Source: an uncultured Lachnospiraceae bacterium (GTDB lineage Bacteria > Bacillota_A > Clostridia > Lachnospirales > Lachnospiraceae). From it: DNA of 6,848 bases. Within the stretch, counting starts at the first letter, position 1. The number at the start of each line of letters is the position of its first letter. This document shows positions 1 through 6,848 of the stretch, one piece after another. The stretch lies in NCBI GenBank assembly GCA_902766415.1, contig CACXDR010000004.1, forward strand, positions 1 to 6,848, read 5' to 3'. The position numbers and the translations under genes were made by a program. The notes beneath the pieces are model-generated. The model ran no database searches, had not been told where the DNA came from, and was given only the letters and a program-made list of their open reading frames with translations.

Positions 1-1454
1 ACGGGGACCGCGAAGCCGGTCGGCATGCGCAGGTGTCCCGGGAACAGCCTGTCATAATCTGAAAGGAAATAGTAATCCGAATACCACTTCCTGTCCTTTA
101 AAAAGCCGTAGGCGTCGTCAAGCGGCTGGAGGCCGCCGTCGTACGAAGCGTCCAGGCCGGAGCTTTCAAAGACGGTCGGCACCTGCCCCGTTTCAAAGGC
201 CGTGCGGATCCTGTCCGCGTACTCAGCCTCCGGGACCGGCACGCAGACCACCTCGACCTCCGGGCAGCTCTCCCGGAAGCCCTCCACCAGGCGCTCCGGG
301 TCCGAGCCCTCGCGCGCGGGATACCAGAAGGTGATATGCGCAGGCTCCAGATGCAGGGCCGCGCGCCGCAGGAAAAACCGGAACAGGCTGAAGCCGCCGA
401 CCAGGAGGATGATGATCCCCGCGCCGCCGAGAAGGAAGAAACGGCGGTGCCGCCGGTGCCTAAGCTCCCCCTCCGCGTCGCGGACCGGACCCGCGCTGCG
501 GATCGCGGCGGCGAACTCGTCCACCGTCCGGTACCGGAGCTCCGGGTCTATGGCCATGGCACGCATGATCGCGTTGCTGACCCCCTTCGGGATCTCCGGG
601 TTTATGCTGTCCGGCGCGGGCAGCTCGTCCCTGATCACGCGGTTCACCGACTCGTCGGGCTTCCGCCCCGTGACGGCCTTATAGAACATGGCGCCCGCGG
701 CGTAGACGTCCGTCCACGGCCCCTGCACGCTTTTCGAACGGTACTGCTCCGGCGGCGTGTAGCCCGGCTTCAGGATGATGGACCTGGTCGTCTCCTTTTC
801 CGTATCCGAAAACCTGGCCGCGCCGAAATCGATCAGCTTGACCTGGCCGCTGTTCGTGATGAAGACGTTGTCGGGGCTCACGTCGCGGTGGATGATTCCG
901 TGGGCGTGGAGCTCCTTCAGCGCGTTCAGCACGGAAAGCGTGACCTCCTCCGCGGTCCCGTACGGGACGCCGCCCGGATTCGAGGCGATAAAATCGCGGA
1001 AAGAAACGCCGTCCAGGTACTCCATCACGATATACGCGGTCCCGTTTTCCTCAAAGAAATCGTAGACGTGGACGATATTCGGATGGGCGCTGAACAGCGC
1101 CATGCTGCGGGCCTCGGACAGGAACCTCGCCTTTCCGGCAAGGAACTCCTCCCCTCTCTGCCCCTTATACATAATGACCTTCGGATTGCCGGGAACGCGG
1201 TTCACGATCCCGTTCGCGCTCGGATAATACTCCTTGACCGCGCACACCTGCTGGAGGCGCGTGTCGAACGCGCGGTAGGTTATGCCGAAGCCGCCGACGC
1301 CCGCCGCGGTCCCGACCATATAGCGGCCCCCGCCGAGGACCGTTCCCGGATAAAGCTGGAACGGCTCCTCAGGCAGGCTTCCGCGGACATACCCGCAGTG
1401 CGGGCATATCTGATAGCTCCCGTCATACTCCTTCATGCAGTTCAGACACCGCAT
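1..1454 (-). CDS. Zinc-ribbon Ser/Thr receptor kinase with extracellular solute-binding-protein-like domain (3' end beyond window)
   Basis: The frame from the ATG at 1454 stays open for 484 codons and leaves the window without a stop, so the C-terminus is missing. Residues 3-20 form a zinc ribbon (C3, C6, C17, C20). The kinase domain spans about 45-320: glycine loop GVGGFGITY (52-60), ATP-binding K74 in AVKEYYP, helix-C E114, catalytic loop HRDVSPDN (189-196), DFG 209-211, PGYTPPEQY (230-238), and D249 in GPWTDVYA. An Arg/His-rich stretch (332-338) precedes one membrane segment at about 339-362, giving kinase-in, C-terminus-out topology. From 373 the sequence (ITFWYP, then EVVCVPVPEAEYADRI, FETGQVPTVFES, LQPLDD, MPTGFAVP) follows the N-lobe pattern of family-1 solute-binding proteins. 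An AAGGGGG ribosome site lies 6 bases before the start. Inferred role: a membrane sensor kinase whose ligand domain resembles an ABC-transporter binding protein. The catalytic-loop Lys of canonical Ser/Thr kinases is Ser193 here. The kinase call is near certain; the solute-binding call is strong but rests on a partial domain. Confidence 0.93.
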   Translation of the reverse strand, partial: MRCLNCMKEYDGSYQICPHCGYVRGSLPEEPFQLYPGTVLGGGRYMVGTAAGVGGFGITYRAFDTRLQQVCAVKEYYPSANGIVNRVPGNPKVIMYKGQRGEEFLAGKARFLSEARSMALFSAHPNIVHVYDFFEENGTAYIVMEYLDGVSFRDFIASNPGGVPYGTAEEVTLSVLNALKELHAHGIIHRDVSPDNVFITNSGQVKLIDFGAARFSDTEKETTRSIILKPGYTPPEQYRSKSVQGPWTDVYAAGAMFYKAVTGRKPDESVNRVIRDELPAPDSINPEIPKGVSNAIMRAMAIDPELRYRTVDEFAAAIRSAGPVRDAEGELRHRRHRRFFLLGGAGIIILLVGGFSLFRFFLRRAALHLEPAHITFWYPAREGSDPERLVEGFRESCPEVEVVCVPVPEAEYADRIRTAFETGQVPTVFESSGLDASYDGGLQPLDDAYGFLKDRKWYSDYYFLSDYDRLFPGHLRMPTGFAVP

Positions 1455-1460
1455 GCGTTT

Positions 1461-1467
1461 CCCCCTT
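1461..1467 (-). promoter_or_regulatory. Ribosome binding site of the solute-binding-domain kinase
   Basis: AAGGGGG on the minus strand lies 6 bases upstream of the ATG at 1454. It supports that start, which also places the first zinc-ribbon cysteine at residue 3, exactly as in the protein encoded at 2943-1528. Confidence 0.6.
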
Positions 1468-1478
1468 AAGCCCCCTGT

Positions 1479-1512
1479 CCCCGCCGGAGCTCCCTGAGCC
1501 CTCCGGCAGGGG
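1479..1512 (-). other. GC-rich intercistronic stem-loop
   Basis: On the minus strand CCCCTGCCGGAG (1512-1501) can pair with CTCCGGCGGGG (1489-1479), with one bulged T and an 11-base loop. The structure sits between the stop of the DUF4234-like gene and the ribosome site of the kinase gene. No T-run follows it, so it does not look like a normal intrinsic terminator. It could be an mRNA-stabilising or processing element, a weak terminator, or chance in GC-rich DNA. Confidence 0.4.
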
Positions 1513-1527
1513 CATGATCCTTGTAGT

Positions 1528-2943
1528 TCAGTTCTTGTTGTACTGCTTGCAGAGCTCGTTCATGTTTCTGAGCACCATGTAGGTCGCGTAGAAGTAGCCT
1601 ACGCCGCAGCTCATCGCGCCGACCAGCGTCCAGACAAGATACGACGTACCGTTCTCGGTGAAGCGGAGACCGTAGCGCGGCGCGTTCTCCTGCATGCGGT
1701 TGCACAGATTGTACCACCAGAAATATGCGTAGAAGCCGCAGCTGATTAACGTGAAGCAGAAGTACTTGAGCAGGCCGGGCGTTTCCTTCCCGTCCCCCTC
1801 GCAGAGGATGTTGACGTCCTGCGCGAGCTTATAGATAAAGTAGAGATTGTAGAGGCTGCAGCTCAGAAGGTTCAGCACGATCAGCAGAAGGAGCGAACGG
1901 TCGGTCTTCAGCGGCCCGAGCCCGCCGTTGCCCGGAGGCAGGTTCAGCGGATCGGTATTTGCAGAGGCGTATGCCGGAGCAGCCTGCCGCTGCGCGCCGC
2001 CTGCGTTCGCCTGTCTCTGGCCGGCTGCCTGCGCCTTCGCGGCTGAAGCAGCGGAACGCTCCGCGGCGGAAGAGCTCACATCGTCCTTGAAGCCGTTCAG
2101 CGCGCCGCTGACGACGTCGCCCATGCTCTCACCGGCGACACCCTCCAGCACGCTCATCTTATTCACGGACATGATGATGTACATGCCGCCCACGGCGACA
2201 AGCAGGGCGATGACATCCCTGAGAAGCCATACCGCGCTCCCGTGCCAGCTGCCGGACACGATGTGGATGACCAGGTACCTTAAAAGATCGACGCAGAGAA
2301 GCACGCCGCAGACGATGACGAGCGTGATATAGAAGGACCTTGCCTTACTGTTCTTCCAGGAGGCGAACATGTAGAAAAGGACCCCCGCTGCGCCTGCCAG
2401 GCAGACAAGCCTTATCAGGGCCAGAAGGAAGAACAGGAGCCTTGAGACCACATGGCCGAAGCCGCGCGCGGAAAAAATGCTCCCGAGGTTTGAGAACACG
2501 CCGCCCAGGGACATCAGGGCAAAGATCGCGAAAACGATGCCCATGATGATCGCGAAGATCTTCACCGCGCCCGCGCCAGGCTGCGCTCCCTCGGCGCCAG
2601 GCTGCGCCTGCGGCGGTCTCTGCGCCGGCGGCGCCTGGGCCGCGCGTCCCTGATAGCCGCTTCCGGCGGTCCTCCTTTCCGCGCCCTGTCCCTGCGGGGC
2701 ACGGTTCTGTGCCTGCTGCGCCTGCTGTGCCTGCGAAGCGCTCTGCGCGGATGCGTTCCGGGCAGGCTGCCCCTGTGCCGGGCTGACCTTCGGTGCCGGT
2801 GCCGGAGCCGGGGCCGGCGCCGCGGCCTGCACCCGGGAACCGGGTCTCATCTTTTCAATTTCCTCCGGCGTAAAAACATGGCCGCATTTCCAGCAGTATC
2901 TCGGATCAGCTTCGATATTCGCGCCGCACTGGGTACAAAACAT
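1528..2943 (-). CDS. Zinc-ribbon polytopic membrane protein with DUF4234-like C-terminal domain
   Basis: This is a 471-residue protein of unknown biochemical function. The N-terminus is a zinc ribbon (C3, C6, C17, C20; FCTQCG then YCWKCG). Next comes a low-complexity Ala/Pro/Gln linker (about 38-125) with an Ala-Pro run at 42-51. Four hydrophobic segments follow at about 127-148, 165-193, 204-229 and 237-260. A second Ala/Gln-rich, probably cytosolic linker covers about 285-330. The C-terminal part has three more hydrophobic segments (about 350-372, 391-413, 434-458) with the LLSCSLYNLYFIYKL and ISCGFYAYFWWYNL pattern, which I match to the DUF4234 family from memory. A strong AAGGAGG site lies 8 bases before the ATG. 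The gene follows the DUF2752 gene after 30 bases and precedes the kinase gene by 73, which suggests co-transcription. Sharing its ribbon spacing with both kinases hints that it belongs to the same signalling assembly, perhaps as partner or substrate; that is inference. The zinc-ribbon and membrane calls are secure, the DUF name less so. Confidence 0.9.
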   Translation of the reverse strand: MFCTQCGANIEADPRYCWKCGHVFTPEEIEKMRPGSRVQAAAPAPAPAPAPKVSPAQGQPARNASAQSASQAQQAQQAQNRAPQGQGAERRTAGSGYQGRAAQAPPAQRPPQAQPGAEGAQPGAGAVKIFAIIMGIVFAIFALMSLGGVFSNLGSIFSARGFGHVVSRLLFFLLALIRLVCLAGAAGVLFYMFASWKNSKARSFYITLVIVCGVLLCVDLLRYLVIHIVSGSWHGSAVWLLRDVIALLVAVGGMYIIMSVNKMSVLEGVAGESMGDVVSGALNGFKDDVSSSAAERSAASAAKAQAAGQRQANAGGAQRQAAPAYASANTDPLNLPPGNGGLGPLKTDRSLLLLIVLNLLSCSLYNLYFIYKLAQDVNILCEGDGKETPGLLKYFCFTLISCGFYAYFWWYNLCNRMQENAPRYGLRFTENGTSYLVWTLVGAMSCGVGYFYATYMVLRNMNELCKQYNKN

Positions 2944-2951
2944 TCCTGTTT

Positions 2952-2958
2952 CCTCCTT
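2952..2958 (-). promoter_or_regulatory. Ribosome binding site of the zinc-ribbon DUF4234-like gene
   Basis: AAGGAGG on the minus strand lies 8 bases before the ATG at 2943. This is close to an ideal Shine-Dalgarno site and fixes the start of this gene. Confidence 0.8.
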
Positions 2959-2973
2959 AATATAGATCTTTCT

Positions 2974-3402
2974 TTATAACACGGGCCGGCCGTGAAGCAC
3001 CAGCTCCCTGAGCCGGAAAAGGATCCTGAAGACAAGGCCCTCCTCCGGCCGGAAATACACGATCCCGCTCTTTCCTCCCGCAAGCCGGAAAAGCCACACG
3101 CCAAGCATGAGGGCGATGCCGGCCCCGGAAAGCACCCTGAACAGCCGTTCCGGGATATGCCTTCTGGCAGGCACCAGGACAGCCGCGGCAAGCGGCATGA
3201 GAAACAGCGGGTGGACGGAAAACGCGCCCGCGGGGTCTCCCGCCAGCACCATGTGCCAGGCGCGGCTCATGCCGCAGCCCGCGCAGGAAAGCCCGAAAAA
3301 CAGCCGGAACGGACAGGTCGTGATGCCTGCCAGGTCGGCGAGGAGATAAAAGAGAAGGACTCCCGTCACTGCTGCGATCTCCGCAAAGCCTTTGCGTTTC
3401 AT
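2974..3402 (-). CDS. Small membrane protein, DUF2752-like
   Basis: This 142-residue membrane protein carries the cysteine signature I associate with DUF2752: C30-P-F-R, then C40-A-G-C43-G-M-S-R-A (40-48), followed by a GDPAGAF stretch and HPLFLMPL (64-71). Hydrophobic segments lie at about 8-26, 65-79 and 91-107, so two or three membrane passes are likely. The C-terminal 30 residues are basic and presumably cytosolic. Its molecular function is unknown; the conserved cysteines and arginine suggest a metal or structural site, but nothing in the sequence proves this. The start is supported by AGGAAGG (3414-3408), 5 bases before the ATG. The stop is 30 bases from the next gene, so the two are very likely co-transcribed. 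It lies just downstream of a terminator-like stem-loop and no clear promoter of its own is visible, so it may depend on read-through from the wall-repeat gene. Confidence 0.87.
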   Translation of the reverse strand: MKRKGFAEIAAVTGVLLFYLLADLAGITTCPFRLFFGLSCAGCGMSRAWHMVLAGDPAGAFSVHPLFLMPLAAAVLVPARRHIPERLFRVLSGAGIALMLGVWLFRLAGGKSGIVYFRPEEGLVFRILFRLRELVLHGRPVL

Positions 3403-3439
3403 ACCGTCCTTCCTGCCGTCCTCTCTCAGGCTGTCCCAT

Positions 3440-3480
3440 GAAGAAAAGGCAGGCGCAGTTCCCTGCCCTGCCCTTTCTTC
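3440..3480 (-). terminator. Intrinsic-terminator-like stem-loop after the wall-repeat protein gene
   Basis: Positions 3440-3453 and 3467-3480 form a 14-pair inverted repeat (one G-U in the minus-strand RNA) around a 13-base loop. In the minus-strand transcript the second arm reads CCTGCCTTTTCTTC, a G+C stem running into a pyrimidine/U-rich end. It begins 25 bases past the stop codon at 3506. It could end or attenuate transcription between the secreted protein gene and the three membrane-protein genes. The U-run is interrupted by C, so termination may be partial. Confidence 0.6.
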
Positions 3481-3505
3481 AGCTTATTCAGGATCCGTTC
3501 CCGGA

Positions 3506-4396
3506 TCAGTCTTCATCGTCATAGTAATCGTCGTAGCTGTAGTCGTAGTCCTCATCCACATCGTCGACTTCGTTCGACGGGACATAGAGGCCGGATTCCA
3601 CCTTGGAGATGTAGGTCGTGATCTCGCCTTCCGTGACCAGGTCCTTAAGGCTGGATTTCACGAAGCTTTCCCACTGGCTCTTCTTCGCCGTGCGCCTGGA
3701 GGCGTTGCTGGTCTGCATGGACTTCTTGTACTTCACGTAGTACTCGTCCATGATCTCGACTGCCCTCTCCGCGACGACGGACTCATCGAATTCCTTCTGG
3801 AGCTGCTGCTCGTAGCCCTCCTTATAGAGGTTCCAGGTATCGCTGAAGCCCGTGTTCTTCGTGGTCGTCGTCTGGTAGTACATGACGCCGTCGTCCATGA
3901 ACTTGTACTTCTTGCCCTCGCCGGCATTCAGCTCCGTGTTCCTGTAGATCGCGCCGGTGTTGTCGGTGCAGTAGGCGTACTGGTCTTCTCCGGAATACAG
4001 GAAGAAGATCCCCATGTCCATGGCGCCGCTGTCCTTGAAGTGATAGCGCTTGCCGCCCTCGTCGAACCAGCCCACCTTGATGTTTCCGCCGTTGGCGGGA
4101 TCAAGATAATACCACTGGCCGGCATCCTGCTTCCAGCCGAACGCCTGCACGCCCGACGGCTCGAAGAACTTCCAGCCGTAGTTCACGTACTGCCATCCGG
4201 TCTTCATGTATCCGTCGGCGCCGAAGCAGTAGTTCGCACCGTCGACCTCCTTGACGCCGTTCATGAGATATGAACCGTCGTCGTTCTGGTACCAGTAGCC
4301 GCCGGCGTCGTTCTTCCAGGTCCCTGCCCAGACCGTGGAAACACACAGCGCGGAGACCGCCGCAGCCGCGGCAAGAGTTTTCATGATCTTTCTCAT
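3506..4396 (-). CDS. Secreted cell-wall-binding-repeat protein with acidic Asp/Tyr-rich C-terminus
   Basis: This 296-residue exported protein has a typical signal peptide (basic MRKIMK, hydrophobic Ala-rich core, likely cleavage after A24 in VWA-G). Residues about 25-180 contain degenerate aromatic/glycine repeats of the choline- or glucan-binding type: GTWKNDAGGYWYQND, GYMKTGWQYVNYGWKFFE, AFGWKQDAGQWYYLD, IKVGWFDEGGKRYHF, KKYKFMDDGVMYY. These repeats in known proteins hold secreted proteins to teichoic acid choline or polysaccharide. Residues about 185-275 are predicted helical, charged and of no family I recognise. The last 21 residues hold 10 Asp, 3 Glu and 5 Tyr. AAAAGGAGG ends 8 bases before the ATG, which fixes the start. 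The gene has its own AT-rich upstream region with a tandem repeat and is followed by a terminator-like hairpin, so it may be regulated apart from its neighbours. Ligand and enzymatic activity cannot be assigned; no hydrolase motif is visible. Confidence 0.9.
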   Translation of the reverse strand: MRKIMKTLAAAAAVSALCVSTVWAGTWKNDAGGYWYQNDDGSYLMNGVKEVDGANYCFGADGYMKTGWQYVNYGWKFFEPSGVQAFGWKQDAGQWYYLDPANGGNIKVGWFDEGGKRYHFKDSGAMDMGIFFLYSGEDQYAYCTDNTGAIYRNTELNAGEGKKYKFMDDGVMYYQTTTTKNTGFSDTWNLYKEGYEQQLQKEFDESVVAERAVEIMDEYYVKYKKSMQTSNASRRTAKKSQWESFVKSSLKDLVTEGEITTYISKVESGLYVPSNEVDDVDEDYDYSYDDYYDDED

Positions 4397-4404
4397 AAGA
4401 GTGT

Positions 4405-4413
4405 CCTCCTTTT
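4405..4413 (-). promoter_or_regulatory. Ribosome binding site of the wall-repeat protein gene
   Basis: AAAAGGAGG on the minus strand ends 8 bases before the ATG at 4396. It overlaps the end of the gene-proximal copy of the 31-bp tandem repeat, so the duplication reaches into the translation-initiation region. Confidence 0.8.
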
Positions 4414-4468
4414 CGTGCCTTTGCTGATTCCATTATAGTCCTATTCATGCCTTGCTGATTCTATTATA
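4407..4468 (-). repeat. Tandem direct repeat, about 31 bp, two copies, in the promoter region
   Basis: Copy 1 (4437-4407) and copy 2 (4468-4439) are separated by one base. Read on the minus strand they align at 27 of 31 positions (three substitutions and one single-base gap). Each begins TATAAT, then (A/G)GAATCAGCAA, then a GGCA(C/T)GAA(A/T)AGGA end. The centre-to-centre period of about 31 bp equals nearly three helical turns, so both copies present the same DNA face. Confidence 0.85.
4432..4468 (-). promoter_or_regulatory. Two candidate -10 elements (TATAAT) upstream of the wall-repeat gene
   Basis: Perfect TATAAT hexamers occur on the minus strand at 4437-4432 and 4468-4463, one per copy of the tandem repeat, in a conspicuously AT-rich gap within GC-rich DNA. 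They lie 35 and 66 bases before the start codon. I see no good TTGACA-like -35 element 16-18 bases upstream of either, and no TGn extension. If these are promoters they may need an activator or use a weak -35. Confidence 0.45.
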
Positions 4469-4523
4469 TTCTGAAAAGGACTTGCATTTATTTTACGTTT
4501 TTAAATATTCCCTGTCTTAATTC

Positions 4524-6725
4524 TTAAGTATTCGCGTCCCTGAGCCACTCAGGAATATCGTCGGCCCCTCCCGCGGGCTGCGCAGGCGGCGGCGCGGCCT
4601 CGGTCTGCGGCGGTGGCGGCGGCGCCTCGGTCTGCGGCGGCGGCGGTGCCTCCGTCTGCGGCGGCTGCGTCTGCGGCGGCTGCGTCTGCGGCGGCTGTGT
4701 CTGCTGCGGCTGCGGCGCCTGTGTCTGCGGCGGCTGTGTCTGCTGCGGCTTCGTCTCCTTCGGCCTCGGTCCGCGGCTTATGACAAGGACCACCTCGCTG
4801 CCCTTCTCCTGGGCGCCGGACAGGCTCTGGCTTATGACATTGCCCTCCTTGACCGTTTCGCTGTACTGCCTCTCGCCCGTCACGGGGACGAACCCGGCAG
4901 CCTCAAGCATTTCGGCAGCCTCGCTCTCCGTATACTGGTTGATGACATCCGGGACCTGGACCTTCTCGATACCGTCGCTGATCGTGAGGGTGATCATGGA
5001 GTTCTTCGCGAGCTCCCCGCCGGCAGGCTGGTCCATCGCGATGATCCTGTCCTTATTGTCGTTCGTGTCCTCATAGGTGTGCCGGAAGGTGACCTGGAAG
5101 GAACCGGAAAGCAGCTCTCTCGCCTCGTCCTCCGTCATGCCCATGACGTCCGGGACCTCGATCATCTCTGTCGTGTCGACCTCTTCCTGGCCCTGGCCCT
5201 CGTCCTTGACGACCATGATCGTGACGGTGCTTCCCTTGTCGATATTCAGGCCCTGCTCCACGCTCTGGGATTTGACCTCCCCGGGCATTCTGGAGGTGTC
5301 CGACACCTCGCGGATCTCCGCCTTCAGTCCCACCTTTTCAAGCGCGGCAAGCGCATCCTCCTTCATAAGGCCCTGCATCTGCGGGACAACTGCCTGCTCG
5401 CGCCCGAGGCTGACGTCAAGGTCGACCCTGTTGTTCTTTTCGACGATCTTTCCGCGCTCGATCGACTGCCCCGTGACCGTGCCGCGCGGGATGACCGCGT
5501 CGTAAACATTGTGCAGGTCGCCGACGGCAAGGGACTTCTCCGTCAGCATGGTACCTGCCGTCTCCTGTTCCTTGTTGACCACGTTCGGGACGGTGGTCAT
5601 GTTCTGGGGCAGGACCGCATCCGGCACCGGCGGGCGGATCGTGATAAAGAGCGCGATGACCGTCATGACGACCGCCGCGGCGATCCCCAGGCCGATCGTG
5701 ACCTTGGCCGCCACCGGCATCTTCCCGACGTCCTTCTTCCGGTTCCGCGCGACCTTCTCCTTAACGTCCGCGGCCATGAGCTCCTGCTCAAACTCCTCCA
5801 TGGACTGCGTGCGGTCCTCGACCGTGACCACCAGGGCGTTCATGATCGCGGTCTCCATGGGCTTCGAGATGGTGACGCCCATTTTGGACGGCTTCTTCAG
5901 CATGTCCTTGACGCTCCGCTCCATGGCGTCCTCCGGCGTGACGCCGGTGATCATTTTATAGAAGGTCGCCGCCAGCGCGTAGACGTCCGTCCACGGTCCC
6001 TGGTCTCCGCGGCTCCGGTACTGCTCCTCCGGCGCGTAGCCTGGCTTGATGATGACGGAAAGGCTCTTGCTGTGCTTCGTCGTGGCGTAGCGCGCCGCGC
6101 CGAAGTCGAGGATCTTGACCTCGCCGTCCGACTGGATCTTGATGTTGTCCGGCGCGATATCACGGTGGATGATGCCTTCCTTGTGGACGGCCTTCATGCC
6201 CGCGATGACCTTCAGCGTGATCTGGAGCGCCTGATCCACGGAAAGCTTTCCTTCCCGGGCAAGGATCTCCTTCACAGTCTCGCCGTCAACATATTCCATG
6301 ATGATGTAGCAGGTGTTGTTCGCCTCGAAGCAGTCGAAGTTGTGGACGATGTTCGGGACGTTCTGGAACTTCGCCAGCCTCCTGGCCTCGTCCAGCATCT
6401 TCTTCTTGCCCTCTTCAAACTGCTCCTCGCGCTCGCCGGTATAGACCGTGACAGCCTGCTGGTTCGGCATGCGCGTGGAGAACTCGCCGGGGAGATATTC
6501 CTTGATGGCGACAGTCTTCTGGAGCAGGTTGTCATAGCCGATATAAGTGATGCCGAAGCCGCCGAACCCGAGCACGCGGCCTACGGTATATCTGTTCTGG
6601 AGCAGGGAGCCGGGTACGATATGGTACGCCTCCTTCGCGGGCGTCCCGTGTACATACCCGCAGTACGGGCAGACCATAAACTGCTCGCTGTACTCCTTCA
6701 TGCATCCCATGCATCGTCTGTTCAT
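4524..6725 (-). CDS. Zinc-ribbon PASTA-domain Ser/Thr receptor kinase
   Basis: Counted from the ATG at 6725 the protein has 733 residues. Order: zinc ribbon (C5, C8, C19, C22); kinase domain about 46-318 with GFGGFGITY (53-61), K75 in AIKEYLP, helix-C E113, HRDIAPDN (187-194), DFG 207-209, PGYAPEEQY (228-236) and D247 in GPWTDVYA; one membrane segment about 342-363; four PASTA repeats at about 377-441, 444-508, 522-585 and 589-652; and an 81-residue Pro/Gln/Thr-rich tail ending in IPEWLRDANT. PASTA kinases such as PrkC/PknB sense peptidoglycan fragments or lipid II and phosphorylate cytoplasmic targets; an equivalent wall-sensing role here is inferred. An in-frame GTG at 6734 would add three residues, but AAGGG is only 2 bases from it and 11 from the ATG, so I prefer the ATG. 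PrkC/PknB lack an N-terminal zinc ribbon, so this is probably not the housekeeping PASTA kinase but a paralog of the kinase at 1454. Ala191 replaces the usual catalytic-loop Lys. Confidence 0.95.
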   Translation of the reverse strand: MNRRCMGCMKEYSEQFMVCPYCGYVHGTPAKEAYHIVPGSLLQNRYTVGRVLGFGGFGITYIGYDNLLQKTVAIKEYLPGEFSTRMPNQQAVTVYTGEREEQFEEGKKKMLDEARRLAKFQNVPNIVHNFDCFEANNTCYIIMEYVDGETVKEILAREGKLSVDQALQITLKVIAGMKAVHKEGIIHRDIAPDNIKIQSDGEVKILDFGAARYATTKHSKSLSVIIKPGYAPEEQYRSRGDQGPWTDVYALAATFYKMITGVTPEDAMERSVKDMLKKPSKMGVTISKPMETAIMNALVVTVEDRTQSMEEFEQELMAADVKEKVARNRKKDVGKMPVAAKVTIGLGIAAAVVMTVIALFITIRPPVPDAVLPQNMTTVPNVVNKEQETAGTMLTEKSLAVGDLHNVYDAVIPRGTVTGQSIERGKIVEKNNRVDLDVSLGREQAVVPQMQGLMKEDALAALEKVGLKAEIREVSDTSRMPGEVKSQSVEQGLNIDKGSTVTIMVVKDEGQGQEEVDTTEMIEVPDVMGMTEDEARELLSGSFQVTFRHTYEDTNDNKDRIIAMDQPAGGELAKNSMITLTISDGIEKVQVPDVINQYTESEAAEMLEAAGFVPVTGERQYSETVKEGNVISQSLSGAQEKGSEVVLVISRGPRPKETKPQQTQPPQTQAPQPQQTQPPQTQPPQTQPPQTEAPPPPQTEAPPPPPQTEAAPPPAQPAGGADDIPEWLRDANT
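4654..4752 (-). repeat. 15-bp tandem repeats coding the Pro/Gln/Thr tail of the PASTA kinase
   Basis: Six near-identical 15-base units (plus-strand consensus gtctgcggcggctgc) occupy 4654-4713 and 4723-4752, interrupted by a 9-base insert at 4714-4722. They encode repeating Q-T-Q-P-P on the minus strand. A related GC-richer series at about 4590-4653 encodes the P-P-P-P-Q-T-E-A part. All units keep the reading frame, so copy number can change without breaking the gene. Confidence 0.8.
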
Positions 6726-6782
6726 GTTGATCACGACCCTTCATGGTGGTAGTTGTCTGGCTCAGCCTGGATCCCGCGTCCT

Positions 6783-6848
6783 TCAGACGCTCTGCGGGCT
6801 GTCCGCGGTGCTGCCCTCTGCCGGGCGCGCGCCGGGACCGCCGGTCCC
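6783..6848 (-). CDS. Possible C-terminal tail of an upstream gene (partial)
   Basis: The minus-strand frame entering at the right edge gives 21 codons, rich in Gly, Ala, Pro and Ser, ending SPQSV and a TGA at 6785-6783. Nearly all its third codon positions are G or C, matching the coding bias of the neighbouring genes better than the other two frames. It would end 57 bases before the kinase ATG. Too little is present to name a product, and a non-coding GC-rich stretch cannot be excluded. Confidence 0.35.
   Translation of the reverse strand, partial: GTGGPGARPAEGSTADSPQSV

Follow-up and report, generated by a model that had tools for sequence, protein, structure and literature searches.

A predicted receptor Ser/Thr kinase with a family-1 solute-binding ectodomain, from a Lachnospiraceae genome and its relatives

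Can a bacterium couple recognition of an external solute to phosphorylation of its own proteins within a single polypeptide? The question is raised by a gene at the left edge of a 6,848-nucleotide stretch of DNA (hereafter the window, meaning that whole stretch) from an uncultured Lachnospiraceae bacterium (assembly GCA_902766415.1, contig CACXDR010000004.1, positions 1 to 6,848). A preliminary description, made from the letters alone, had read the gene product as a receptor Ser/Thr kinase with the ectodomain of an ABC-type solute-binding protein (SBP), and had proposed hidden Markov model (HMM) and structure-prediction searches of the outer region as well as a search of genomes for the same domain order. 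The analyses reported here confirm that this layout is real, not the result of chance or assembly error, and the reading is borne out by Pfam matches on a full-length relative, a profile search against solved structures, a two-lobed structure model and a conserved family.

The gene's minus-strand frame (1454-3) opens with an ATG and, as first described, stays free of stops up to the edge of the window, over 484 aa. Within this one uninterrupted frame lie a full kinase domain (130.2 bits against the Pfam Pkinase cut-off of 31.7; E 1.2e-37) and the start of a solute-binding domain (SBP_bac_1 at residues 387-447, E 1.7e-4), which at 22.1 bits scores under the 26-bit cut-off, the domain being truncated. 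The P-loop glycines, VAIK Lys, HRD Asp and DFG Asp are invariant in all 32 aligned relatives, and alignment with P0001, described below, gives the window protein the same catalytic Lys, HRD Asp and DFG Asp. The cysteines of the zinc-ribbon-like N-terminal tip are at least 90% conserved in the 32 relatives, and a CxxC...CxxC tip is present in 104 of the best 120 of 7120 database relatives. Together, these features support the prediction of a single-pass Hanks-type receptor Ser/Thr kinase with a family-1 SBP ectodomain; its kinase activity is likewise predicted.

The complete protein can be seen in P0001, a full-length sequence of 670 aa that represents four member sequences and shares 94% identity with the window protein over their common part. 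Pfam recognizes Pkinase (128.8 bits, cut-off 31.7), SBP_bac_8 at 383-635 (35.3 bits, cut-off 27) and SBP_bac_1 at 381-573 (30.6 bits, cut-off 26). Hydropathy places a single membrane segment at 334-352, and in the structure model a long helix spans 321-361 with the first ectodomain strand from 366, so that the linker between membrane helix and ectodomain is nearly absent; the original claim of one membrane segment, with the solute-binding part beginning within about 10 residues, is matched by these positions. In a profile search against solved structures, the top match of the ectodomain is YcjN (E 3e-11). Structure comparison of the full model gave kinases only, the ectodomain not being among the listed matches, and the ectodomain was therefore modelled on its own: for L002, one of the two closest relatives of the window, a two-lobed periplasmic-binding fold is predicted. 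Run on these relatives, the proposed HMM and structure-prediction searches thus came out in favor of the solute-binding assignment, and the family-1 fold of the ectodomain is shown by prediction.

The same layout recurs in other genomes. A genome scan, whose best 80 matches gave 78 loci, found the kinase and SBP parts in one open frame at 32 of the 78 (by blastp), and by profile the fusion is present in 44 of the 60 loci entered into a tree. The fusion loci come from different assemblies, including one complete chromosome (L040). A database search with the 32-row alignment returned 7120 proteins at E 1e-30, the best 120 of which were listed; all 120 contain both halves, the outer half having been scored with a profile from 15 stand-alone SBPs. 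The search for the same domain order was therefore positive in genomes and in the database alike. Where names are given among these best 120 of 7120, they read 'protein kinase', 'serine/threonine-protein kinase' or 'extracellular solute-binding protein'; public domain tables do show the pairing, yet it is without a name of its own among the matches listed.

The family is patchy in its distribution. Many members are labelled Lachnospiraceae, others Clostridiaceae, Eubacteriaceae or Oscillospiraceae, and one metagenome-assembled genome (L031) is labelled Prevotella, perhaps a binning error. In genome samples, for which rates are lower bounds because few candidates were scored per genome, matches were found in 13 of 299 genomes from the family of G001, the L040 genome (E 1e-20; two of the 13 are short frames of 384 and 515 aa), in 2 of 398 from its phylum (G001 itself and G661), and in 5 of 291 from the class of G029 (E 1e-15), only two of which are of fusion length (G029 itself and G661). 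Among plasmid records, none had a match covering 80% of P0001, and the best 20 of 805 match residues 4-322 only. The viral contigs searched yielded no relative of the SBP kinase.

The surroundings of the gene were compared across the 32 fusion loci, with flanks of up to 8 kb, often shortened where a contig stops. A PASTA kinase lies near the fusion in 30 of the 32, at most 300 bases away in 24; in the two misses, the next kinase is cut by a contig end (L020) or the fusion runs off the contig (L059). PP2C is found at 29 loci and FHA at 22, and the PASTA kinase, PP2C and FHA neighbors are on the same strand as the fusion in each listed case, with representatives checked by Pfam. Permeases matched at none of the 32 fusion loci vs 18 of 25 control loci of ordinary SBPs, with the reservations that other permease families would escape the profile and that 11 of the 25 control loci went into building it, which makes the control partly circular; two profile members are BPD_transp_1 by Pfam. 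At control loci fetched later, outside the profile building, permeases are present at 7 of 10. Since no permease was matched at any of the 32 fusion loci, the ectodomain is a family-1 member by sequence and predicted fold and not a transport component by context, which fits the preliminary description's suggestion that solute recognition here bypasses a transporter.

In the window itself, the minus-strand gene row comprises a PASTA kinase, a choline-binding protein, a DUF2752 protein, a DUF4234 protein and the SBP kinase (Table 1). The cluster of the choline-binding protein (c3) has members at seven other fusion loci, one of them checked by Pfam; the DUF4234 protein is in no cluster common to three or more fusion loci. 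The preliminary description had made no mention of the PASTA kinase's counterparts beside the fusion in relatives, or of the phosphatase, FHA and type VII secretion links found there.

Table 1. Positions of the SBP-kinase gene, its domains and its neighbors in the window.
Feature	Position	Strand	Evidence or remark
SBP-kinase gene	3..1454	-	484 codons within the window, off left edge
Zinc-ribbon-like N-terminal tip, two CxxC pairs, residues 3-20	1395..1448	-	Pfam Zn_Ribbon_1 only E 0.1
Ser/Thr kinase domain, residues 48-268	651..1313	-	Pkinase E 1.2e-37
Single membrane helix, residues 340-358	381..437	-	P0001 hydropathy 334-352, six-residue offset by alignment
Start of solute-binding domain, residues 371-484, cut by window edge	3..344	-	SBP_bac_1
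DUF4234 protein with CxxC-type tip, directly upstream of the SBP kinase	1528..2943	-	PF14018 E 2.9e-21
DUF2752 protein, between the kinases	2974..3402	-	PF10825 E 1.4e-14
Choline-binding-repeat (cell-wall-binding) protein	3506..4396	-	Choline_bind_3 E 7.5e-8
PASTA receptor kinase with similar CxxC...CxxC tip	4524..6734	-	Pkinase E 1.1e-36, PASTA E 1.5e-42

Several loci hold further genes of note. In the two closest relatives of the window, a divergent kinase-like protein with Pkinase under cut-off stands between the SBP and PASTA kinases (L002:8443-10212, L001:10061-11560) and may be a pseudokinase partner. A fusion of a trypsin-like protease with an FHA domain is encoded near the SBP-kinase locus at L027:15559-17280, and at L003:6872-7474 a Phd/YefM-ParE toxin-antitoxin pair precedes the SBP-kinase gene by about 0.5 kb. 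The complete L040 genome has a second cluster away from the SBP kinase, with eight kinase-alignment matches in 23 kb (G001 contig C1, 4906249-4928788).

How did the fusion arise? In a tree of 140 kinase domains, built by a quick method, one starred branch (98) unites 47 SBP kinases and seven others, and a second (100) holds 43 of the 44 PASTA kinases, again with seven others. The fusion branch thus contains seven kinases without SBP among its 54 rows: those of L033, L034 and L037 are short (331-371 aa), that of L037 stopping at the end of its locus, and two copies each in L019 and L059 bear other outer parts. For one of these, the L059 sister kinase (4434-7046, 870 aa), an outer part that looked SBP-like by eye was unsupported by profiles or Pfam. 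A separate kinase of the PASTA-partner branch (L034:9154-12450) has a NADase_transloc-type F5/8 domain and is without a PASTA match. One branch separates 31 fused ectodomains from 25 stand-alone SBPs (100/100). Read most simply, the two parts fused once, long ago, and a few kinases later lost or swapped the outer one.

The five stand-alone SBPs closest to the fused domain among the 25 (L084, L096, L099, L100 and L101) all have a sensor histidine kinase and a response regulator as neighbors, with no permeases, which suggests that they are dedicated sensory SBPs. The histidine kinase and dCache were confirmed by Pfam in L099 and L100, the response regulators were labelled by eye, and a histidine kinase is also present at 6 of 18 control loci with permeases. 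A common origin of the fused domains with these two-component sensory SBPs, an idea that arose from the similarity ranking before the tree was built, was rejected: the tree does not unite them (approximately unbiased test, p 0.004).

A subset of relatives links the fusion to type VII secretion. WXG100 proteins scored over the cut-off in 17 of the 32 fusion genomes, and an EssC-like ATPase in the same 17. In nine of the 32 (G005, G007, G009, G010, G011, G013, G015, G023 and G027) the ATPase and a fusion ectodomain match are on one contig, 3-11 kb apart; in G023 and G027 this pair consists of a second fusion copy, whose match contains one stop codon, and a shorter protein of FtsK type. In the other eight of the 17, ATPase and fusion are on different contigs. 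Two genomes from the family sample, G045 and G141, show the same linkage, with 11 and 15 kb between the two on a single contig. Within the family to which G001 belongs, 48 of 200 genomes have the ATPase, a rate not strictly comparable with 17 of 32 because the second search scored two candidates per genome. Neither WXG100 nor the ATPase was matched in the genomes of L001, L002 or L040. We therefore rejected type VII secretion as a general output, given that the link holds in 9 of 32 genomes only and is absent from L001 and L002; its control is possible as an output in a subset and not as the rule.

What, then, might the protein do? We consider it likely that this is a receptor kinase with a built-in sensor, in which a shortened family-1 SBP ectodomain lets a solute switch phosphorylation, in company with FHA, PP2C and PASTA-kinase partners; the SBP kinase probably converts a dissolved external chemical into internal protein phosphorylation. 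A solute from outside the cell, with a carbohydrate or a cell-wall fragment as the likeliest candidate, would close the two lobes of the ectodomain, and, because the ectodomain follows the membrane helix almost without linker, closure could pass through that helix and alter how the kinases pair or are oriented. The kinases would then phosphorylate themselves and other proteins, with neighboring FHA proteins reading the phospho-threonines and the PP2C phosphatase erasing them. The nearby PASTA kinase may supply a second, cell-wall-derived input, and a type VII secretion system may be among the outputs in some relatives. We infer ligand binding, kinase activation, cross-talk and targets from architecture and context.

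More tentatively, we suggest as a possibility that these proteins form a new class of solute-sensing receptor kinase, co-inherited with the PASTA kinase, through which solute and cell-wall signals meet on one phosphatase/FHA network with type VII secretion as an output in some lineages. SBP-kinase and PASTA-kinase distances correlate as expected for co-inherited genes (r 0.66 over 39 pairs, 0 of 2000 permutations as high), a correlation that includes species relatedness, uncorrected. This inclusion is one of several points that weigh against our main reading, that of a built-in solute sensor. The SBP label requires four changes on the kinase tree, not one, and room must therefore be left for a few kinases to have lost or exchanged their outer part. 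Relative to the SBPs matched, the ectodomains lack about 100 residues, and their divergence is fast, with a mean pairwise identity of 23.3% vs 52.8% for the kinase domain; a pocket may for these reasons vary among members or be lost. At E 1e-3, SBP_bac_8 is matched in 17 of 32 members and SBP_bac_1 in nine. The window's own ectodomain is incomplete and is read via P0001, and the ectodomain model is that of L002, not of the window. Neither PP2C nor FHA was recognized among the five window proteins scanned by Pfam.

The same shortening and fast divergence would suit the main rival explanation, which we regard as unlikely: that the SBP fold binds no small molecule and serves as a module for protein-protein or cell-wall contact, positioning the kinase or touching the PASTA partner, the choline-binding protein or a secretion machine. 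The recurrent pairing with a PASTA kinase and the type VII ATPase nearby in 9 of 32 genomes fit such a module as well. Solute sensing is favored by the prediction of both lobes, although the fold alone does not show binding, and by four residues (Tyr406, Pro420, Pro472 and Pro642 in P0001 numbering) that are invariant in 32 of 32 ectodomains, although invariance does not show binding either. Very improbable, in our view, is an ectodomain that feeds its ligand to an ABC importer whose genes lie elsewhere, the kinase regulating uptake. Family-1 SBPs do normally work with MalFG-type permeases, as the control loci illustrate, but the fusion loci lack any permease match (a search confined to loci, not whole genomes), and the ectodomain is fixed to a membrane helix with almost no linker. 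That chimeric assembly or a frame artefact joined two genes, an idea to which the frame's being cut at the window edge lends itself, is refuted by the existence of the family, with its shared layout at 32 loci of different assemblies, a complete chromosome among them, and in all of the best 120 database proteins.

The SBP ectodomain is a fold whose ligands routine binding screens can seek, and because sensor and kinase form one chain, a single protein is enough to test both stimulus and response. Many gut Lachnospiraceae carry the family alongside PASTA kinases, which opens a way into the joint processing of chemical and cell-wall signals and perhaps, for some species, into the switching of type VII secretion.

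We found no description of a fusion between a Ser/Thr kinase and a family-1 SBP in the literature searched, most subscription papers lying outside it. For some actinobacterial proteins with an SBP of another family, NCBI has a product name of the kind 'bifunctional serine/threonine-protein kinase/ABC transporter substrate-binding protein'. In the portions of text available, PMC9602780 counts Ser/Thr kinases among the receptors stimulated by SBP binding, citing work on PknG, and PMC6213207 names PASTA and beta-propeller ectodomains, neither describing the fusion; the available part of PMC12415202 makes no mention of Ser/Thr kinases.

Membrane kinases have been linked to secretion before. In the accessible text of PMC11217815, type VII variants are described with the membrane kinases TscD, TsdD, TseD and TsjD, several alongside a PPM phosphatase, an FHA protein and an FHA-bearing ATPase; the outer parts are extensively helical (TscD, TsdD) or TPR (TsjD), and the word 'solute' occurs 0 times in the main text. 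Like the fusion, these are membrane kinases with an outer domain, although the fusion's own type VII link is limited to the nine genomes above. On the outer domains as described there, the fusion is set apart from TscD, TsdD and TsjD; for the outer part of TseD that text states no fold. PpkA (5hnv), the kinase of type VI secretion, comes from a different secretion system and phylum.

The fusion shares with the PASTA kinases (PknB, PrkC, StkP and Stk1), which are usually encoded with a PP2C phosphatase, a cytosolic Hanks-type kinase, one membrane helix and an outer sensor. It differs in that its ectodomain is a two-lobed solute-binding domain instead of PASTA, and here the PASTA kinase is a separate neighbor. 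No PASTA repeats were found by Pfam in the window fragment or P0001, nor, with a profile of six PASTA domains, in the best 120 of 7120 relatives. Against the NCBIfam model PknB_PASTA_kin (cut-off 450) the SBP kinase scores 200 bits and the window's true PASTA kinase 320.7, and the cut-off is no fair test because the latter misses it too.

With the family-1 SBPs MalE, YesO, YcjN and CbpB, the ectodomain shares sequence family and predicted fold; unlike them, it sits on a kinase's membrane helix, is about 100 residues shorter and has no adjoining permease match. The nearest functional parallel appears to be GlnH-GlnX-PknG of Actinobacteria, in which, according to the part of the source available, the SBP is a protein of its own, proposed to reach PknG by way of the membrane protein GlnX (PMC6069109). 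Common to both systems is the proposed flow of information from a solute-binding protein to a Ser/Thr kinase. GlnH-GlnX-PknG relies on a separate sensor acting via GlnX, whereas the fusion unites sensor and kinase in one chain with an SBP of family 1; by analogy, and as far as the available text describes it, GlnH-GlnX-PknG is the closest working analogue of the fusion.
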